DNA of 64,000 nucleotides from Kaistia adipata DSM 17808. GTDB lineage: Bacteria; Pseudomonadota; Alphaproteobacteria; Rhizobiales; Kaistiaceae. The notes under the pieces are model-generated. The model was not told the DNA's origin, searched no databases, and was given only the letters and a program-made list of their open reading frames with translations. The translations under genes were made by a program, and so were the position numbers. Below, piece by piece: positions 5,546-41,022 of the stretch. The stretch is from contig NZ_KE383991.1 in NCBI RefSeq assembly GCF_000423225.1, positions 568,217 to 632,216 of the forward strand, in the 5' to 3' direction. Every line of letters begins with the position of its first letter. Position 1 is the first letter of the stretch.

Positions 5546-6037
5546 ATGACTAAAGATGCCCATGTTTTTGGTGAACTTGACCAGTTCGACCAGCACATTC
5601 TCCAGGCCCTGTCGGAGGATGGCCGCATGTCGATCACCGATCTGGCGGCGCGCATCGGCCTATCCAAGACCCCCTGCCAGATCCGCTTCAGGCGCCTGAT
5701 CGCAGAGGGGTACATCGAAGGCTTCAAAGCCATCCTGAACCCGACGAAAATGCAGCTCGACCATGTCGCCTTCGTCGAGGTGAAGCTGACCGATACGCGG
5801 GAGGCCGCCCTGAAGAGCTTCAACGACGCCGTCAAGAAAGTCGCGGAGGTTGACGAATGCCACATGATCGCGGGCCGGTTCGACTACCTTCTGAAGGTGC
5901 GGACGCGCGATATCAGCAAATACCGGCGGGTCCTCGGCGACAAGATATCGACCCTCCCCTATGTTGGCAGCACGTCGACCTACCCCGCCATGGAAACCAT
6001 CAAGGAAGGCTGGAGCAGGGTCACGTCGATTGCCTGA
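5546..6037 (+). CDS. Lrp/AsnC-family transcriptional regulator, PutR-like
   Basis: 163 residues: an N-terminal winged helix-turn-helix (about 10-65, with LSKTPCQIRFRRL as recognition region) and a C-terminal RAM ligand-binding/oligomerisation domain (about 75-155). The usual Lrp layout is one ligand-sensing octamer acting on divergent genes. It stands back to back with gdh-putA. In Agrobacterium and relatives a PutR of this family activates putA in response to proline, which makes proline the likely effector here (inference). RBS is AAAGGGA about 7 bp before the ATG. Confidence 0.92.
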   Translation: MTKDAHVFGELDQFDQHILQALSEDGRMSITDLAARIGLSKTPCQIRFRRLIAEGYIEGFKAILNPTKMQLDHVAFVEVKLTDTREAALKSFNDAVKKVAEVDECHMIAGRFDYLLKVRTRDISKYRRVLGDKISTLPYVGSTSTYPAMETIKEGWSRVTSIA

Positions 6038-35498: not shown

Positions 35499-35981
35499 TC
35501 ACACGGCCTCGCCTTCATAGGCGGAGCGCAGCGTTTCCATGTCGAGCTTGTCCATGCCGCGCAGCGCCTGCATCACCCGCGACGACCGGCCGGCATCCGG
35601 ATCGGCCAGCATGGCGCCGAGCGTGCTCGGCACGATCTGCCACGACATGCCGAATCGGTCCTTGAGCCACCCCATCTGCCCGGTCGAGCCGCCGCCTTCG
35701 GGCAGGCGCTCCCAGAGTTCGTCGATTTCCTCCTGCATGTCGCAGGCGACGACGAACGAGATGGCCTCGTTGAAGGTGTGGCGCGGGCCGCCGTTCAGCG
35801 CGGTGAACTCGAGCCCCGCCAGCTCGAACGAGGCCAGCATGACCTCCCCCTTCGGGCCGGGCCCCGCATCGCCATAGCGCGCGACCCGATGGACCTTGGC
35901 GTGCTTGAAGATCGATACATAGAAGATGATGGCCTCCTCGACCTGATTGTCGAACCAGAGGAACGGCTTGATCTTCTGCAT
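35499..35981 (-). CDS. VOC family / PhnB-like protein
   Basis: 160 residues from ATG 35981 (AAAGGA 9 bp upstream). Two beta-alpha-beta-beta-beta modules of the glyoxalase fold in the PhnB/3-demethylubiquinone-type subgroup: MQKIKPFLWFDNQVEEAIIF, LASFELAGLEFTALNGGP, NEAISFVVACD and GWLKDRFGMSWQIVPSTL. Such proteins are metal enzymes or binding proteins of unknown substrate. Divergent from the ATP-grasp operon, with 424 bp between. Confidence 0.9.
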   Translation of the reverse strand: MQKIKPFLWFDNQVEEAIIFYVSIFKHAKVHRVARYGDAGPGPKGEVMLASFELAGLEFTALNGGPRHTFNEAISFVVACDMQEEIDELWERLPEGGGSTGQMGWLKDRFGMSWQIVPSTLGAMLADPDAGRSSRVMQALRGMDKLDMETLRSAYEGEAV

Positions 35982-36405
35982 GGACCCAATCCTTTCTGCC
36001 GCTGGCAGACGGCGCGGGGACAGACCTTGGCAGCGGCCAGGGCGCGCGGCGTCCGTCGGTACGGCGTCGCGGCGCCCGGCCCATCCCGACGCGTCCGCCG
36101 ACGCATTCGATGCGAGAGACAGAAAAACGCGCTGGAGGGACATGCGTTCCCCGCAGCGCCGCGACGGGGGCGGCGCGGGAACTGCCTGCGCGCGCGGCGG
36201 ATCGCCTGATCGGTTTCGCGGCAATTGCCCCGTTACGCGGCGGTTTCGAAGAAATCGGCCGATTGGCACTAGCCAAGACTGCCCCGCTCCTATGCAATGA
36301 ACCCTGCAATCCCGGCGCGGAAGCCGCCGTCTCGTCAATCGGAAGCGGTTGGCACGATGCTTGCGGTTCCGAAACCGGGACAACACAAGGGGGGATAGCG
36401 CGCAG
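35982..36405. promoter_or_regulatory. Divergent promoter region of the Anbu operon with an enhancer-like palindrome
   Basis: No gene. About 80 bp upstream of the sigma-54 element there is a palindrome TTGGC-ACTA-GCCAA (36263-36276), at a distance typical of a bacterial enhancer-binding protein site. It does not match the NtrC consensus well. The left part is GC-rich and presumably contains the VOC gene's promoter. Confidence 0.5.
36350..36364 (+). promoter_or_regulatory. Sigma-54 (RpoN) promoter, -24/-12 elements
   Basis: TGGCAC (36350-36355), five bases, then TTGC (36361-36364), preceded by T. This is the consensus -24/-12 arrangement with correct spacing. Transcription would begin near 36375, giving a leader of about 30 bases with the GGGGGGAT RBS before ATG 36406. 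It implies activation by an enhancer-binding protein, most often in response to nitrogen supply. Confidence 0.8.
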
Positions 36406-37824
36406 ATGTTCGTTGCCTTCGACGAGATGAGCGCCACCAGCGATGGCTGCCGGCCCGGCTACGAGATCCTCAAGCGCTGGCTGGACACGACAGCACCCGA
36501 TCTCCTGTCCACCCGCCGCGCCGAGGCCGAACTGCTGTTCCGCCGCATCGGCATCACCTTCGCCGTCTATGGCGACAATGACGGCGAGGAACGGATCATC
36601 CCGTTCGACATCATCCCGCGCATCATCACCGCGCCGGAATGGACCCGGCTGTCGAAGGGGCTGGAGCAGCGGGTGAAGGCGCTCAACGCCTTCCTCGCCG
36701 ACATCTACTTCAAGGGCGAGATCCTGAGGGCCGGCGTCGTGCCCGAGGACCTGATCTACCAGAACCCCTACTACCGGCCGGAGATGGCGGGGCTGAAGCT
36801 CGCGCATGACATCTACGTGATGATCGCCGGCATCGACATCGTCCGCGTCGATCCCGACACCTTCTACGTGTTGGAGGACAATGCCCGCACGCCGTCCGGC
36901 GTCTCCTACATGCTGGAGAACCGGGAAGTGATGATGAAGCTGTTCCCGGACCTGTTCGCGGAACATCGCATCGCGCCGGTCGAGAACTATCCGGACGCCC
37001 TGCTCGCGACGCTGAAGTCGGTCGCGCCGCGCTCGGCGCCGGGCGACCCGACCGTGGCGCTGCTGACGCCGGGCCCGTTCAACTCGGCCTTCTACGAGCA
37101 CTCGTTCCTGGCCGACAAGCTCGGCATCGAGCTGGTCGAGGGCCGCGACCTGCTGGTGCGCGACAATGTCGTCTACATGCGTACCACCGAGGGGCCGAAG
37201 CGCGTCGACGTGCTCTATCGCCGCCTCGATGACGACTTCCTCGACCCCCTGACCTTCCGGCCGGATTCGATCCTCGGCGTGCCGGGGCTGATGAACGCCT
37301 ATCGCGCCGGCAACATCACGCTGTCCAACGCCGTCGGCACCGGCGTTGCCGACGACAAGGCGGTCTATTCCTACATGCCGGAGATCGTCCGCTTCTATCT
37401 CGGCGAGGAGCCGATCCTGAAGAACGTGCCGACCTGGCGCTGCCGCGAGCCCGACTCGCTCAAATACGTGCTCGACAATCTCGAGAGCATGGTCGTGAAG
37501 GAAGTCGCCGGATCGGGCGGCTACGGCATGCTGATCGGCCCGGCCTCCGACCGCAAGACGCGGGAGGAATTCGGCGCCAAGCTGAAGGCCAATCCGGACG
37601 ATTTCATCGCCCAGCCGACGCTGGCGCTCTCGACCTCGCCCACCTTCGTCGACGCCGGCATCGCGCCGCGCCATGTCGACCTGCGCCCCTTCGTGCTGTC
37701 GGGCCGCGACAAGGTCCGCATCGTGCCGGGCGGCCTGACCCGCGTGGCGCTGAAGGAAGGCTCGCTGGTCGTCAATTCCAGCCAGGGCGGAGGCACCAAG
37801 GATACCTGGGTGCTCGATGCCTGA
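36406..37824 (+). CDS. Circularly permuted ATP-grasp type 2 protein (DUF404/DUF407)
   Basis: Probable peptide or amide ligase that uses ATP to join a carboxylate and an amine; the substrate is unknown. 472 residues from ATG 36406. Conserved blocks: LQRVKALNAFLADIYF-type QRVKALNAFLADIY near 87-100, QNPYYRPEMAG near 121, VLEDNARTPSGVSYMLENR near 160, LLTPGPFNSAFYEHSFLAD near 222, and the ATP-site strands SMVVKEVAGSGGYGML near 363. First gene of the four-gene Anbu cluster behind the sigma-54 promoter. Comparative genomics has linked this family with alpha-E, transglutaminase and Anbu genes. Confidence 0.93.
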   Translation: MFVAFDEMSATSDGCRPGYEILKRWLDTTAPDLLSTRRAEAELLFRRIGITFAVYGDNDGEERIIPFDIIPRIITAPEWTRLSKGLEQRVKALNAFLADIYFKGEILRAGVVPEDLIYQNPYYRPEMAGLKLAHDIYVMIAGIDIVRVDPDTFYVLEDNARTPSGVSYMLENREVMMKLFPDLFAEHRIAPVENYPDALLATLKSVAPRSAPGDPTVALLTPGPFNSAFYEHSFLADKLGIELVEGRDLLVRDNVVYMRTTEGPKRVDVLYRRLDDDFLDPLTFRPDSILGVPGLMNAYRAGNITLSNAVGTGVADDKAVYSYMPEIVRFYLGEEPILKNVPTWRCREPDSLKYVLDNLESMVVKEVAGSGGYGMLIGPASDRKTREEFGAKLKANPDDFIAQPTLALSTSPTFVDAGIAPRHVDLRPFVLSGRDKVRIVPGGLTRVALKEGSLVVNSSQGGGTKDTWVLDA

Positions 37825-37851
37825 CCGTCCCGATCCCCGGAGTTCCGTTTC

Positions 37852-38793
37852 GTGCTGAGCCGTACCGCCGACAACCTGTTCTGGCTGGCCCGCTATGTCG
37901 AGCGAGCCGAGAACACCGCCCGCATCATCGATGCCGCCAACCGCCTCGCCGCCATGCCGATCGCCTATGCGGGCGGCTCGAACGAATGGGAGTCGGCCGT
38001 CGCCGCCACCGGCGCGCTCGGCCTGTTCAAGTCGCTGAACCGCGAGCCGACAGCCGAGAACATCATCGATTTCCTCGCCTTCTCGCCGGAAAACCCCTCC
38101 TCGATCCGCTCCTGCCTGGAGCGCGCCCGCGTCAATGCCCGCACGGTGCGCACCGCGCTGACTTCGGAGATGTGGGAGGCGATCAACGGCGCCTGGCTGG
38201 GCTTGCGCGATTTCGACGGCGCCGCGCGCGACCGCATGAAGCTCAACGCCTTCCTGATCTATGTGAAGGAGGCGTCGCTGCGCTTCGACGGCTCGGCCTA
38301 CCGGACGATGATCCGCAACGACGTCTATTTCTTCTCGAGCCTCGGCACCTTCATCGAGCGGGCCGACAACACGGCCCGCATCCTCGACGTAAAATACCAC
38401 CTGCTGTTGCCGGCGCAGGAGAGCGTCGGCGGCGGCCTCGACTATTTCCAGTGGTCGTCGATCCTGCGCTCGGTCTCGGCCAACACCGCCTATCATTGGG
38501 TCTATCGCGAGAGCCTGAAGCCCTCGCTCGTCGCCGACCTCCTGGTGCTGAACGACCAGCTGCCGCGCTCGCTCGCCTCCTGCTACGACAATATCTGCGG
38601 CTTCCTCGACGAGCTGTCGCTCGCCTATGGCCGCCAGGGCCTGGCGCAGCGCGTCGCCCGCTCGACCCGCAACCGGCTGCAGAACGCCACCATCGACGAC
38701 GTCTTCCGCGACGGCCTGCACGAGTTCCTGACCGAGTTCATCGGCGAGAACGGGCGCCTCGGCCAGGCGATCACCGACCAGTATCTCGTCTGA
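37852..38793 (+). CDS. Alpha-E domain-containing protein (DUF403)
   Basis: 313 residues, almost all helical. The signature is the opening MLSRTADNLFWLARYVERAE, repeated in spirit later as LGTFIERADNTARILDVKYH; RxxDNxFWLARYxERAE is diagnostic of the family. It begins with GTG at 37852, 27 bp after the ATP-grasp gene. The biochemical role is unknown, but the family almost always accompanies the permuted ATP-grasp protein and is thought to work with it. Confidence 0.93.
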   Translation: MLSRTADNLFWLARYVERAENTARIIDAANRLAAMPIAYAGGSNEWESAVAATGALGLFKSLNREPTAENIIDFLAFSPENPSSIRSCLERARVNARTVRTALTSEMWEAINGAWLGLRDFDGAARDRMKLNAFLIYVKEASLRFDGSAYRTMIRNDVYFFSSLGTFIERADNTARILDVKYHLLLPAQESVGGGLDYFQWSSILRSVSANTAYHWVYRESLKPSLVADLLVLNDQLPRSLASCYDNICGFLDELSLAYGRQGLAQRVARSTRNRLQNATIDDVFRDGLHEFLTEFIGENGRLGQAITDQYLV

Positions 38794-38806
38794 ACGGACC
38801 CGCGTC

Positions 38807-39625
38807 ATGCGCCTCAAAATCGTTCACGAGACCGCCTATCGCTTCGATCCGCCGGCGACCGGCGCGATCCAGACCCTGCGGCTGACGCCGCGCGGCCATG
38901 ACGGCCAGTTCGTCGTCAACTGGCGGATCGAGGTCGACCACGACTGCCGCCTCGACCCGGCGACCGACCCGTTCGGCAACATCGTGCACTCGTTCACGAC
39001 GGAGGGCCGGCTCGACGGGCTGACGATCACCGCGCTCGGCGACGTCGAGACGCACGACATGGCCGGCATGGTGCGCGGCCAGAAGGAGCGCTTCCCGATC
39101 GGCGTGTTCCTGCGCACAACGCCGCTGACCGTGCCGGACGCCGCCATCCGCGCCTTCGCCGAGGACGTCGCCGCCGCGGCGCCGGCCGACCCGCTGTCGC
39201 GCCTGCACGCGCTGATGGGGGCGCTGCACGAAAAGATCCTGCCGGGCGGCGACGGCGCCGACGACAGCGCCAGGGCGACCTTCGCCTCGGGCCGGGGCGA
39301 CGCGCGCGCCGCGGCGCATGCGATGATCGCCGCCGCCCGCCATCTCGGCCTCCCCGCCCGCTTCGCCAGCGGCTATCTCTTCCGCCCCGACGCCGCCGCG
39401 CCGGCCGGCGCCGAGCATGGCTGGGCCGAGGCGCATGTCGACGGCGTCGGCTGGATCGGCTTCGACGTCGCCCTGAATCTCTGCCCGACCGACACGCATG
39501 TGCGCCTCGCCATCGGCCTGGACGGCACCGGCGCCGCGCCCGTGCGCGGCACGGCCTATGGCGCAGGCCCCGCCATGCCGGCGGTTTCGATCAGCGTCGC
39601 GGAGGCACGCGCGGCCACGAGATAG
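38807..39625 (+). CDS. Transglutaminase-fold protein lacking the catalytic cysteine
   Basis: 272 residues: an N-terminal bacterial transglutaminase-like beta domain (MRLKIVHETAYRFDPPATGA) and a transglutaminase-core domain at about 110-225. In active relatives the core has GVCQD followed by a short gap and His. Here the aligned stretch is SGRGDARAAAH (161-171), so Cys is replaced by Ala166, Gln by Arg and Asp by Ala. The other triad members remain: His204 in AEHGWAEAHV and Asp220 in GWIGFDVALN. The protein should therefore be unable to act as a thiol peptidase or transferase, unless the reading is affected by sequence error, of which the frame shows no sign. It may bind rather than cut its substrate. 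It follows the alpha-E gene by 13 bp. Confidence 0.9.
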   Translation: MRLKIVHETAYRFDPPATGAIQTLRLTPRGHDGQFVVNWRIEVDHDCRLDPATDPFGNIVHSFTTEGRLDGLTITALGDVETHDMAGMVRGQKERFPIGVFLRTTPLTVPDAAIRAFAEDVAAAAPADPLSRLHALMGALHEKILPGGDGADDSARATFASGRGDARAAAHAMIAAARHLGLPARFASGYLFRPDAAAPAGAEHGWAEAHVDGVGWIGFDVALNLCPTDTHVRLAIGLDGTGAAPVRGTAYGAGPAMPAVSISVAEARAATR

Positions 39626-39704
39626 GGGAGGCATCGGAATTTCGCTTGCACCTCAAATCCACTCCCCTAAAACTCCGGCCGGGGTTGGGCAGGACGAAGA
39701 GTTT

Positions 39705-40448
39705 ATGACCTATTGCGTTGGAATTCTGGTGCGCGACGGGTTGGTCATGCTGGCCGACACCCGCACCAATGCCGGGCTCGACAACATCGCGACGTACCGG
39801 AAACTGCATCTTTTCCAGAACGACGGCGAGCGCGTGATCGCGATCGCCACGGCCGGCAATCTCGCCGTCAGCCAGTCCGTGCTGAACGTGCTGAGCGACG
39901 GCCTGGAAAACCCCGAGACCGGCAAGATCGAGACGATCCACACCGTCTCCTCGATGTTCAAGGTGGCCCAGTTCGTCGGCCGCGCGATCCGCGAGGTCTA
40001 TCGCATCCACGGCAAGTCGATGGAGCAGCAGGCGGCGGCCTTCGACGTCACCATGCTGATCGGCGGCCAGGTCAAGGGCGGGCGGCTGCGCCTGTTCATG
40101 GTCTATTCGGCCGGCAACTTCATCGAGGCCACCGCCGATACGCCCTATCTGCAGATCGGCGAGCACAAATACGGCAAGCCGATCCTGGACCGCGCCATTA
40201 CCGGCGAGACCGACCTCTCCGAGACCCTGAAGCTCGGCCTGATCTCGATGGATTCGACCCTGCGCTCGAACCTCGGCGTCGGCATGCCGATCGACATCGC
40301 CGTCATCCGCCGCGACGGGCTCAAGATCGAGACGTCGCACCGCATCGACGAGAGCGACGTCTATTTCGCCGATCTCCGGGCGCATTGGTCGGCGGCGCTG
40401 CGCGCCGCACACCAGGCGATCCCCAACCCGCCCTACGGGCGGGACTGA
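39705..40448 (+). CDS. Anbu peptidase (ancestral beta-subunit proteasome homologue)
   Basis: 247 residues. It begins MTYCVGILVRDGLVMLADTR; removal of Met exposes Thr as the N-terminal nucleophile of the Ntn-hydrolase fold. Asp17 and a lysine at position 32 (numbering from that Thr) complete the expected triad (ADTR, YRKL). It is longer than HslV, as Anbu is, and has the family's C-terminal extension (SAALRAAHQAIPNPPYG). Anbu proteins assemble into open rings or helices and their substrates are unknown. RBS AGGACGAAG precedes ATG 39705. Last gene of the cluster, 79 bp after the transglutaminase-fold gene. Confidence 0.93.
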   Translation: MTYCVGILVRDGLVMLADTRTNAGLDNIATYRKLHLFQNDGERVIAIATAGNLAVSQSVLNVLSDGLENPETGKIETIHTVSSMFKVAQFVGRAIREVYRIHGKSMEQQAAAFDVTMLIGGQVKGGRLRLFMVYSAGNFIEATADTPYLQIGEHKYGKPILDRAITGETDLSETLKLGLISMDSTLRSNLGVGMPIDIAVIRRDGLKIETSHRIDESDVYFADLRAHWSAALRAAHQAIPNPPYGRD

Positions 40449-40516
40449 TTGCTGCCCTGGCGTTGCTGATGCCGATCACCTCTCTTTGAGAGGGACATTC
40501 GCACAACACGGTTCCC

Positions 40517-40638
40517 AACATGCTGAGGAGCCCCGAAGGGGCGTCTCGAAGCACGCAGGGTGGCGATCAATCCATGCGTTGCCCCCTAAGCCGTGCGTCC
40601 TTCGAGACGGCTTGCTGTGCAAGCCTCCTCAGGATGTT
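40517..40638. repeat. Long palindromic intergenic repeat (type B)
   Basis: About 122 bp. The outer arms AACATGCTGAGGAG and CTCCTCAGGATGTT pair with one mismatch. Inner arms GTCTCGAAGCACGC and GCGTCCTTCGAGAC also pair, and there are small hairpins CCCCGAAGGGG and GCTTGCTGTGCAAGC. It lies between the convergent stops of anbu and usg. It is a dispersed element well known in Hyphomicrobiales genomes and could stabilise or end both transcripts. Confidence 0.85.
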
Positions 40639-40695
40639 GCCGACAGGGCGCTGCATGACTGGCTCTTGTCACGCTCGCGCACGCTGCCGATGCCC

Positions 40696-41022
40696 TCAGT
40701 TCAGGCTGAACTCCGCCGCGGCGATCCGACACTCCGCCGCGCCGATCAGCCTTTGATGCGCGACCCGGACCGAGTGCAGTGGCCCGTCGAGATCGCGCCG
40801 CCAGAAATCAAGGAAGCGGATCAGCTCCGGGAAATCCGGCGCCAGATCGTATTCCTGCCAGACATAGCTCTGCAGGAAGGAAGGATGATCGGGAAGCCGG
40901 TACAGGATATGGGCGGTCGTCAGTCCATAGCCGGAAAGCTGGCGCAACAGGGATGACGGCATGGGCACCTCATCGCAGATCAGAGCCATCCCGATGACGG
41001 GATGGTGGAATCGTCTCGCCAT
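40696..41022 (-). CDS. Usg family protein
   Basis: 108 residues, matching the short Usg proteins of alphaproteobacteria: LLRQLSGYGLTTAHILYRLP, SFLQSYVWQEYDLAPDFPEL and FLDFWRRDLDGPLHSVRVAH. The name comes from a gene upstream of an unrelated locus in other bacteria; no biochemical role is known. ATG 41022 is preceded by GGGGCG. It stands alone, convergent with anbu and divergent from the ArsR gene. Confidence 0.88.
   Translation of the reverse strand: MARRFHHPVIGMALICDEVPMPSSLLRQLSGYGLTTAHILYRLPDHPSFLQSYVWQEYDLAPDFPELIRFLDFWRRDLDGPLHSVRVAHQRLIGAAECRIAAAEFSLN

Follow-up and report, generated by a model that had tools for sequence, protein, structure and literature searches.

Anbu is a relative of the proteasome that was named in 2008. 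Described here is the Anbu operon found in a 64,000-nucleotide stretch of the Kaistia adipata DSM 17808 genome (the window, whose numbering is used throughout), in which the Anbu gene follows those for a circularly permuted ATP-grasp protein, an Alpha-E protein, and a transglutaminase-fold protein. ATP-grasp enzymes use ATP to form amide bonds, and N-terminal nucleophile (Ntn) hydrolases cleave such bonds.

Described relatives of the operon

The closest described systems are the Anbu operons of Yersinia bercovieri and Pseudomonas putida (PP_2685-2688). These share with the window the four families and their order, which is the published order of the Anbu operon (PMC6376114), and the window keeps the Anbu active-site residues. 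Kaistia differs in having a transglutaminase-fold member without its catalytic Cys; the Yersinia and P. putida members are known here by description. In P. putida, the operon is reported to be induced at nitrogen limitation, which is ascribed to NtrB/NtrC (PMC7801951, citing Hervas 2009), and older work with Anbu induction is cited in PMC7801951 and PMC5666114. The Yersinia ATP-grasp protein releases phosphate from ATP (PMC6376114).

In Burkholderia cenocepacia, the genes I35_5080-5083 (DUF404/DUF407, DUF403, transglutaminase, and large transglutaminase) represent related families under NtrC and sigma-54. In an ntrC mutant their expression drops 6.0 to 9.4 fold, and the study lists them as targets shared by sigma-54 and NtrC (PMC5491218). 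The fourth of these genes is annotated as a large transglutaminase, not as Anbu, and the Kaistia genome has a sister cluster of this type (locus L058). Marine metagenome data link these domains to urea metabolism (PMC3597751). In Bradyrhizobium DOA9, an ATP-grasp gene with TGGCATACCACATGC, which may belong to another family, is among the RpoN targets (PMC13207237). Searches by term found no mention of the operon in a Caulobacter NtrC study or a Paraburkholderia nitrogen study.

Nitrogen control of the Anbu operon is not new as an idea, having been published for P. putida and, for a cluster of the sister type, in Burkholderia. For Kaistia, we consider it probable that the operon is switched on at nitrogen limitation, that its transglutaminase-fold protein is a pseudoenzyme, and that the ATP-grasp protein and Anbu carry out a cycle of ligation and cleavage.

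The sigma-54 promoter element

The consensus for sigma-54 promoters is TGGCACG-N4-TTGC. The original prediction for this DNA placed TGGCAC-N5-TTGC at 36350-36364 and read it as a sigma-54 promoter for the operon. The element is indeed present. TGGCACGATGCTTGC has 11/11 specified bases of the consensus and the GG-N10-GC core, and its last base is 41 nt upstream of the ATG at 36406. It is the sole exact copy of TGGCAC-N5-TTGC on both strands of the 64 kb, where shuffled sequences give an expectation of 0.05 (5/100 shuffles had one). Allowing one mismatch gives 4 sites compared to 3.5 expected, and TGGCACG-N4-TTGC occurs twice in the 4.84-Mb genome searched, compared to three times for the reversed pattern. 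Since the genome-wide count is not above that of the reversed pattern, the letters of the motif prove little, and the frequency of the exact motif was dropped as proof of a promoter. The weight rests on position and conservation. The genome's other exact TGGCACG-N4-TTGC lies at approximately 6001-6015 of locus L060, inside the open reading frame (ORF), as called, of an ATP-binding cassette (ABC) transporter ATPase and near its start.

The conservation was scored over 200 nt before each of 81 ATP-grasp genes, consisting of the window and 80 mostly named loci that are the nearest 80 of 409 and are rich in Ancylobacter and Xanthobacter. A site with at least 9 of the 11 bases is present in 54/81 upstreams and one with at least 10 in 45/81. 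The reverse strand gives 3 and 0 at these thresholds, and shuffles, which leave kinship among the loci uncorrected, give 2.15 and 0.15. Upstreams of other long ORFs from the same 80 loci reach at least 9 in 9/365 cases and at least 10 in 0/365; these control ORFs were mechanically called, with an upstream of 250 nt or more, and some may not be genes. The first scoring demanded GC at -12 and missed the TGGCACG-N4-TTGT form, with a -12 box of GT for GC, that most Ancylobacter, Xanthobacter, and Azorhizobium loci (L078-L135) carry. The -12 rule was loosened to G after this form had been seen, and the same rule was used for all ortholog and ORF controls. The evidence for a predicted promoter is weak as letters and strong as a conserved feature, and the original assignment to sigma-54 is supported by the element's conservation before orthologues.

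A wider set was scored over 250 nt upstream, with loci having less than 150 nt upstream left out. It includes 60 of approximately 155 listed places, hand-picked to spread over genera, with two genomes giving two loci each. All Kaistia loci have the element (13/13 at both thresholds; reverse strand 0 and 0; shuffles 0.5 and 0.1), so the absence from close relatives that was to refute the original prediction is not observed. The rest of the family has it in 5/14 loci at 9 or more and 2/14 at 10 or more (reverse strand 0 and 0; shuffles 0.65 at 9 or more). For the rest of the order, the counts are 28/54 and 18/54 (reverse strand 7 and 0; shuffles 1.8 and 0.2), and these include L052, a 62% match located on a 4.5-kb contig from one assembly of the same genus. 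Other alphaproteobacterial orders give 3/23 and 1/23 (reverse strand 0 and 0; shuffles 1.1 at 9 or more), and other classes of the phylum give 21/32 and 8/32 (reverse strand 3 and 1; shuffles 1.35 and 0.1). One locus without a site is counted twice in this set, as L043 and L142 (G060). The element is found in 1/8 loci of one family (f23) and 0/10 of another (f46), which we guess to be Rhizobiaceae-like and Rhodobacteraceae-like, respectively. On these lineage counts, predicted sigma-54 control of the Anbu operon is widespread but patchy. The survey provides a testable condition, nitrogen limitation acting through NtrC and sigma-54, well beyond Pseudomonas and Burkholderia, and maps where it is absent.

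The sister cluster in the Kaistia genome (L058, 5520-12263) encodes a DUF2126 protein with a transglutaminase domain, an ATP-grasp/Alpha-E fusion, and a small transglutaminase. The element TGGCGCGAATCTTGC lies 54 nt upstream of the cluster's first ORF.

The putative activator dyad and nitrogen regulators

The textbook NtrC dyad is TGCAC-N7-GTGCA. Upstream of the element, nine aligned regions (eight Kaistia-type and one from Prosthecomicrobium pneumaticum) have a common block around CCAAG-N2-TG and TGCAAT, and the dyad TGCCCCGCTCCTATGCA sits inside it. Allowing up to 3 mismatches, a 30-base block from this alignment matches the whole genome at one place.

Dyads were counted in 77 non-redundant upstreams that have the element. 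The best match to the textbook dyad lies 54-70 bp upstream in 26/77, compared to 8.4 in shuffles (maximum 16, 100 runs), and a perfect YGCMY-N7-RKGCR lies 50-70 bp upstream in 25/77, compared to 0.33 (maximum 3); the YGCMY-N7-RKGCR motif and both distance bands, on which the enriched spacing rests, were drawn up after some loci had been seen. More independent support for a putative NtrC site comes from agreement between lineages and from a perfect dyad before one PII gene. Perfect textbook dyads are present near the same spacing in other lineages (L171, L192, and L229). The two PII genes of the Kaistia genome have 10/11 -24/-12 elements, TGGCACGGAGCCTGC and TGGCACGGCACTTGA, and one of them has the perfect dyad CGCCTAAGAATTAGGCA, farther off at approximately 135 bp from the element. 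The genome encodes RpoN (TIGR02395, 428 bits; cut-off 277.35) and NtrC (TIGR01818, 718.4 bits; cut-off 558.6).

The conserved element, the putative NtrC dyad at a preferred spacing, the presence of rpoN and ntrC, and the papers on relatives together support the nitrogen control through NtrC that was originally predicted. General stress control, which had been offered beside it, found no support in anything found.

A transglutaminase-fold protein without its catalytic Cys

The third protein of the operon aligns with 3isr, the nearest solved fold (Foldseek), and the catalytic Cys of 3isr falls on Ala166. The window has G-D-A-R-A where most relatives have G-V-C-Q-D. Instead of a Cys-His-Asp triad, the protein has Ala at the Cys position, with the His and Asp present. 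In an alignment of 139 proteins of 240-340 amino acids, which includes the window and near-copies and in which a few odd rows (e.g., L045) may be misaligned, the Cys is present in 102 and absent in 37. The replacements are Ala (11), Ser (11), Pro (9), Val (4), Thr (1), and Lys (1). The Asp is present in 139/139 of these proteins and the His in 128/139.

The Cys is missing, replaced by Ala or Pro in Kaistia, in all eight aligned Kaistia-type loci (the window and L061-L067) and in P. pneumaticum. Two of these loci, L065 and L066 (titled Mesorhizobium sp. BR1-1-16 and a Bosea metagenome-assembled genome), group with Kaistia on the ATP-grasp tree and are probably misnamed. Bauldia, of the same family, keeps the Cys in 4/4 loci. 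On the ATP-grasp tree (119 rows, 29 of them Cys-less, with near-copies removed and the window represented by relatives), the Cys state changes at least 13 times, of which at least 10 are forced by starred branches; the tree is a quick one with long-branch warnings, and changes were counted without direction. The Cys-less state is also maintained across clades, such as Xanthobacter/Azorhizobium. Sister lineages that differ in the presence of the Cys, such as Kaistia (without) and Bauldia (with), provide a natural comparison.

The reading frame is open, at 270-272 codons, in eight Kaistia loci. The ratio of nonsynonymous to synonymous substitution rates (dN/dS) of the gene is 0.15-0.49 in eight comparisons, indicating purifying selection, and the AlphaFold2 model of the protein has a predicted local distance difference test (pLDDT) score of 94.9. 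With the Cys replaced, the fold predicted to be kept, and the gene under purifying selection, the Kaistia protein is, as modeled, a maintained pseudoenzyme. Because the catalytic Cys is absent, it is unable to make isopeptide bonds by known transglutaminase chemistry, which contradicts the original interpretation in part.

Erythrocyte protein 4.2 and menin have a transglutaminase fold without enzyme activity. By analogy to such pseudo-transglutaminases, the Kaistia protein most likely binds a substrate or serves as a scaffold. This is analogy and not kinship, as the two are distant, eukaryotic, and weakly similar in fold; in the Foldseek results they rank low, protein 4.2 (7uzs) with E 0.042 and menin with E values from 0.031. 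No report of a Cys-less transglutaminase in an Anbu operon was found among the open-access literature matches listed, and the word cysteine is absent from PMC6376114.

The Anbu active site

The fourth protein belongs to the Proteasome family (Pfam, E 5.2e-07) and is identified as Anbu by its PDB relatives, 5loy (E 1.1e-78) followed by 5nyj, 5nyf, 5nyw, and 5lox (to 1.4e-64). Its catalytic residues are Thr1 (after Met removal), Asp17, and Lys32. Asp17 and Lys32 are present in 101/101 aligned Anbus and Thr1 in 99/101; of the other two, one has Ser and one has a gap that comes from a short start call. An Anbu match is found in 200/297 genomes of the order. One Anbu gene, that of L049 (G041:C181:9540-10268), has one in-frame TAG.

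The chemistry of the system is narrowed by these comparisons. Of the 139 operon transglutaminases aligned, 37 are unable to act by the known mechanism, and the Anbu active site hardly varies. Recurrent loss of the Cys beside a constant Anbu site is apparently new and is the part most worth following.

Proposed mechanism and alternative readings

In the proposed mechanism, phosphorylated NtrC would bind at 36280-36296, and perhaps at 36263-36277, and would activate sigma-54 RNA polymerase at 36350-36364, a step strongly suggested by conservation. The operon would then supply an ATP-grasp amide ligase, the Alpha-E protein, the transglutaminase-fold protein, and the Anbu hydrolase. ATP-driven ligation by the ATP-grasp protein and amide cleavage by Anbu would act on one substrate, which may be a small molecule, a peptide, or a protein. 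The Alpha-E and transglutaminase-fold proteins would be partners that position this substrate. A make-and-remove modification system, as first suggested for this locus, is possible, with the limit that in Kaistia the ligase of such a system cannot be the transglutaminase encoded in the operon. A bolder version, which we regard as speculative and rather unlikely, is that, in Anbu systems, the transglutaminase fold is fundamentally an adaptor that binds an amide substrate, for which the Cys is dispensable. The core would then be a nitrogen-regulated pair of ATP-grasp conjugation and Anbu deconjugation, with ubiquitin-like logic in the absence of ubiquitin, that stores or marks amide nitrogen. 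Overall, the observation behind the original prediction is confirmed and its interpretation partly supported, with nitrogen control now on better ground than before.

Several points weigh against a nitrogen-controlled cycle of ligation and cleavage. In P. putida, PP_2686-2688 were still induced 14-20 fold when rpoN was mutated, and Anbu itself (PP_2685) is up just 1.12 fold in the wild type (PMC7801951). Since urtABCD was also induced 7-17 fold in that mutant (PMC7801951), the result may question either the mutant or the sigma-54 dependence. The Anbus of Yersinia, Hyphomicrobium, and Pseudomonas showed no activity when assayed with three standard substrates, and the products of the Yersinia operon had no detected specific interaction with one another (PMC6376114). 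In the Kaistia sister cluster, no dyad of 9 or more is found upstream, and the Cys is kept in both transglutaminases, so a transglutaminase acting in trans could supply the activity. At the threshold of 9, the element is lacking or weak in 26/54 loci from the remainder of the order and 9/14 from the remainder of the family, some of the latter having 8/11 sites (Bauldia), and in most loci of the other alphaproteobacterial orders, where 3/23 reach the threshold.

The position of Anbu itself also weighs against this reading. In 6/6 Xanthobacter, Azorhizobium, and Labrys genomes examined, the operon is without Anbu and the Anbu gene is elsewhere, in Labrys sp. KNU-23 just approximately 10 kb downstream. 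Among the five of these six unlinked Anbu genes whose upstreams were read, no convincing -24/-12 element is found. The best sites have 9 and 8 of 11 bases in the two Labrys genes and 7, 6, and 5 in the other three, two of which have a perfect dyad but no element. The unlinked genes, tried as a test of co-regulation, were not supportive. Since they have no convincing element, the predicted link between Anbu and nitrogen control is weaker than for the other three genes, although Anbu is kept. The unlinked Anbu in 6/6 genomes, with no convincing element before the five genes read, weakens the idea that the four proteins are closely bound into one system.

The operon may instead encode a nitrogen-scavenging protease, in which protein or peptide breakdown by Anbu at nitrogen starvation needs no ATPase and the other three products merely prepare or deliver substrates. 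This has a modest chance of being right. Fuchs et al. 2017 favor protein degradation on the basis of inhibitor binding and the active-site ring (PMC5666114), and many of the named Burkholderia NtrC/sigma-54 targets serve nitrogen uptake and use (PMC5491218); the near-constant Anbu catalytic residues fit as well. Scavenging does not explain the conserved ATP-grasp ligase, however, and it fits poorly with three Anbus that are inactive on standard substrates, with an Anbu gene that can leave the operon and then has no convincing nitrogen promoter, and with the near absence of Anbu induction in wild-type P. putida in one data set.

Iyer et al. 2009 proposed peptide or metabolite synthesis (cited in PMC6376114 and PMC5666114), in which the ATP-grasp protein ligates amino acids and trimming or transfer falls to the transglutaminase-fold protein and Anbu, all being enzymes. 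ATP-grasp chemistry agrees with the proposal, which we nevertheless consider unlikely and which Fuchs et al. rate as less likely (PMC5666114). The transglutaminase Cys is missing in the eight aligned Kaistia loci, and its loss in 37/139 proteins overall means that an enzymatic transglutaminase step is not general within the operon.

It is improbable that the promoter is real and its activator is not NtrC but NtrX or one of two unassigned activators of the genome, with a signal other than nitrogen. NtrX is also above its NCBIfam cut-off in the genome, where the sigma-54 activator domain gives four strong matches, two of them without an assigned identity. The window dyad matches 8/10 of the textbook motif. 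A genome scan for TGCMC-N7-RTGCA gave 12 strand matches at 10 places, compared to 4 for controls, and no evident nitrogen-gene promoter was found at the nine other places with one ORF per strand checked. Weighed against this are the perfect textbook dyads near the same spacing in other lineages and the nitrogen control in print for relatives (PMC5491218, PMC7801951). One of the nine other dyads lies within an apparent amino-acid transporter gene.

That the transglutaminase gene is simply decaying, which would make the lost Cys uninformative about the system, has little to recommend it: its dN/dS is above that of the ATP-grasp gene (0.07-0.19) in 8/8 comparisons and above that of Anbu in 7/8, but all values are well under 1, the frame is open and the fold confidently modeled in Kaistia, and the Cys-less state arises repeatedly, in separate lineages, and is maintained across clades.

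Genes and features of the locus

The four genes were originally described as running in one direction with gaps of 27, 13, and 79 bp, and the ORF coordinates agree, with all four on the + strand (Table 1). Their families are confirmed by Pfam and PDB matches. The first protein matches CP_ATPgrasp_2 (E 8.9e-167) and CP_ATPgrasp_1, and its solved relative is 3n6x (E 5.6e-201), so that family model and structure agree on a circularly permuted ATP-grasp protein. The second matches the Alpha-E family (E 2.7e-95), and its AlphaFold2 model is confident and all-helical (pLDDT 90.0); no PDB relative was found by phmmer (E <= 1) or Foldseek (E <= 0.001). The third has Bact_transglu_N and Transglut_core domains.

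Table 1. Features of the Kaistia adipata Anbu operon and its upstream region, in window positions.
Feature	Position	Strand	Basis and remarks
Imperfect palindrome TTGGCACTAGCCAAG	36263-36277	+	Within block conserved upstream of aligned Kaistia clusters; possible second activator site
NtrC-type dyad (YGCMY-N7-RKGCR) TGCCCCGCTCCTATGCA	36280-36296	+	Centred 62 bp before the -24 element; putative NtrC binding
-24/-12 (sigma-54) promoter element TGGCACGATGCTTGC	36350-36364	+	Consensus match; conserved before orthologues
Ribosome-binding-like AAGGGGGG	36387-36394	+	Sequence itself
Circularly permuted ATP-grasp protein, 472 aa	36406-37824	+	Pfam PF14403/PF04174; solved relative 3n6x; presumed amide ligase
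Alpha-E protein, 313 aa	37852-38793	+	Pfam PF04168; GTG start
Transglutaminase-fold protein, 272 aa, without catalytic Cys	38807-39625	+	Pfam PF08379/PF01841; nearest solved fold 3isr
Ala166 codon GCG, place of catalytic Cys	39302-39304	+	Alignment; His204 and Asp220 of triad kept
Anbu, 247 aa	39705-40448	+	PDB relatives; Thr1, Asp17, Lys32 present

An Rfam scan of 35800-40800 gave no match. Between 35900 and 40800, scans found 1 sigma-70 promoter compared to 0.6 expected and 1 terminator compared to 2.3 expected. Directly behind Anbu, at 40500-40650, is a repeat with an inverted pair (40542-40560 / 40591-40609). It has 54 matches in its own genome, whole or partial, some overlapping and on both strands, and resembles rhizobial intergenic mosaic elements.

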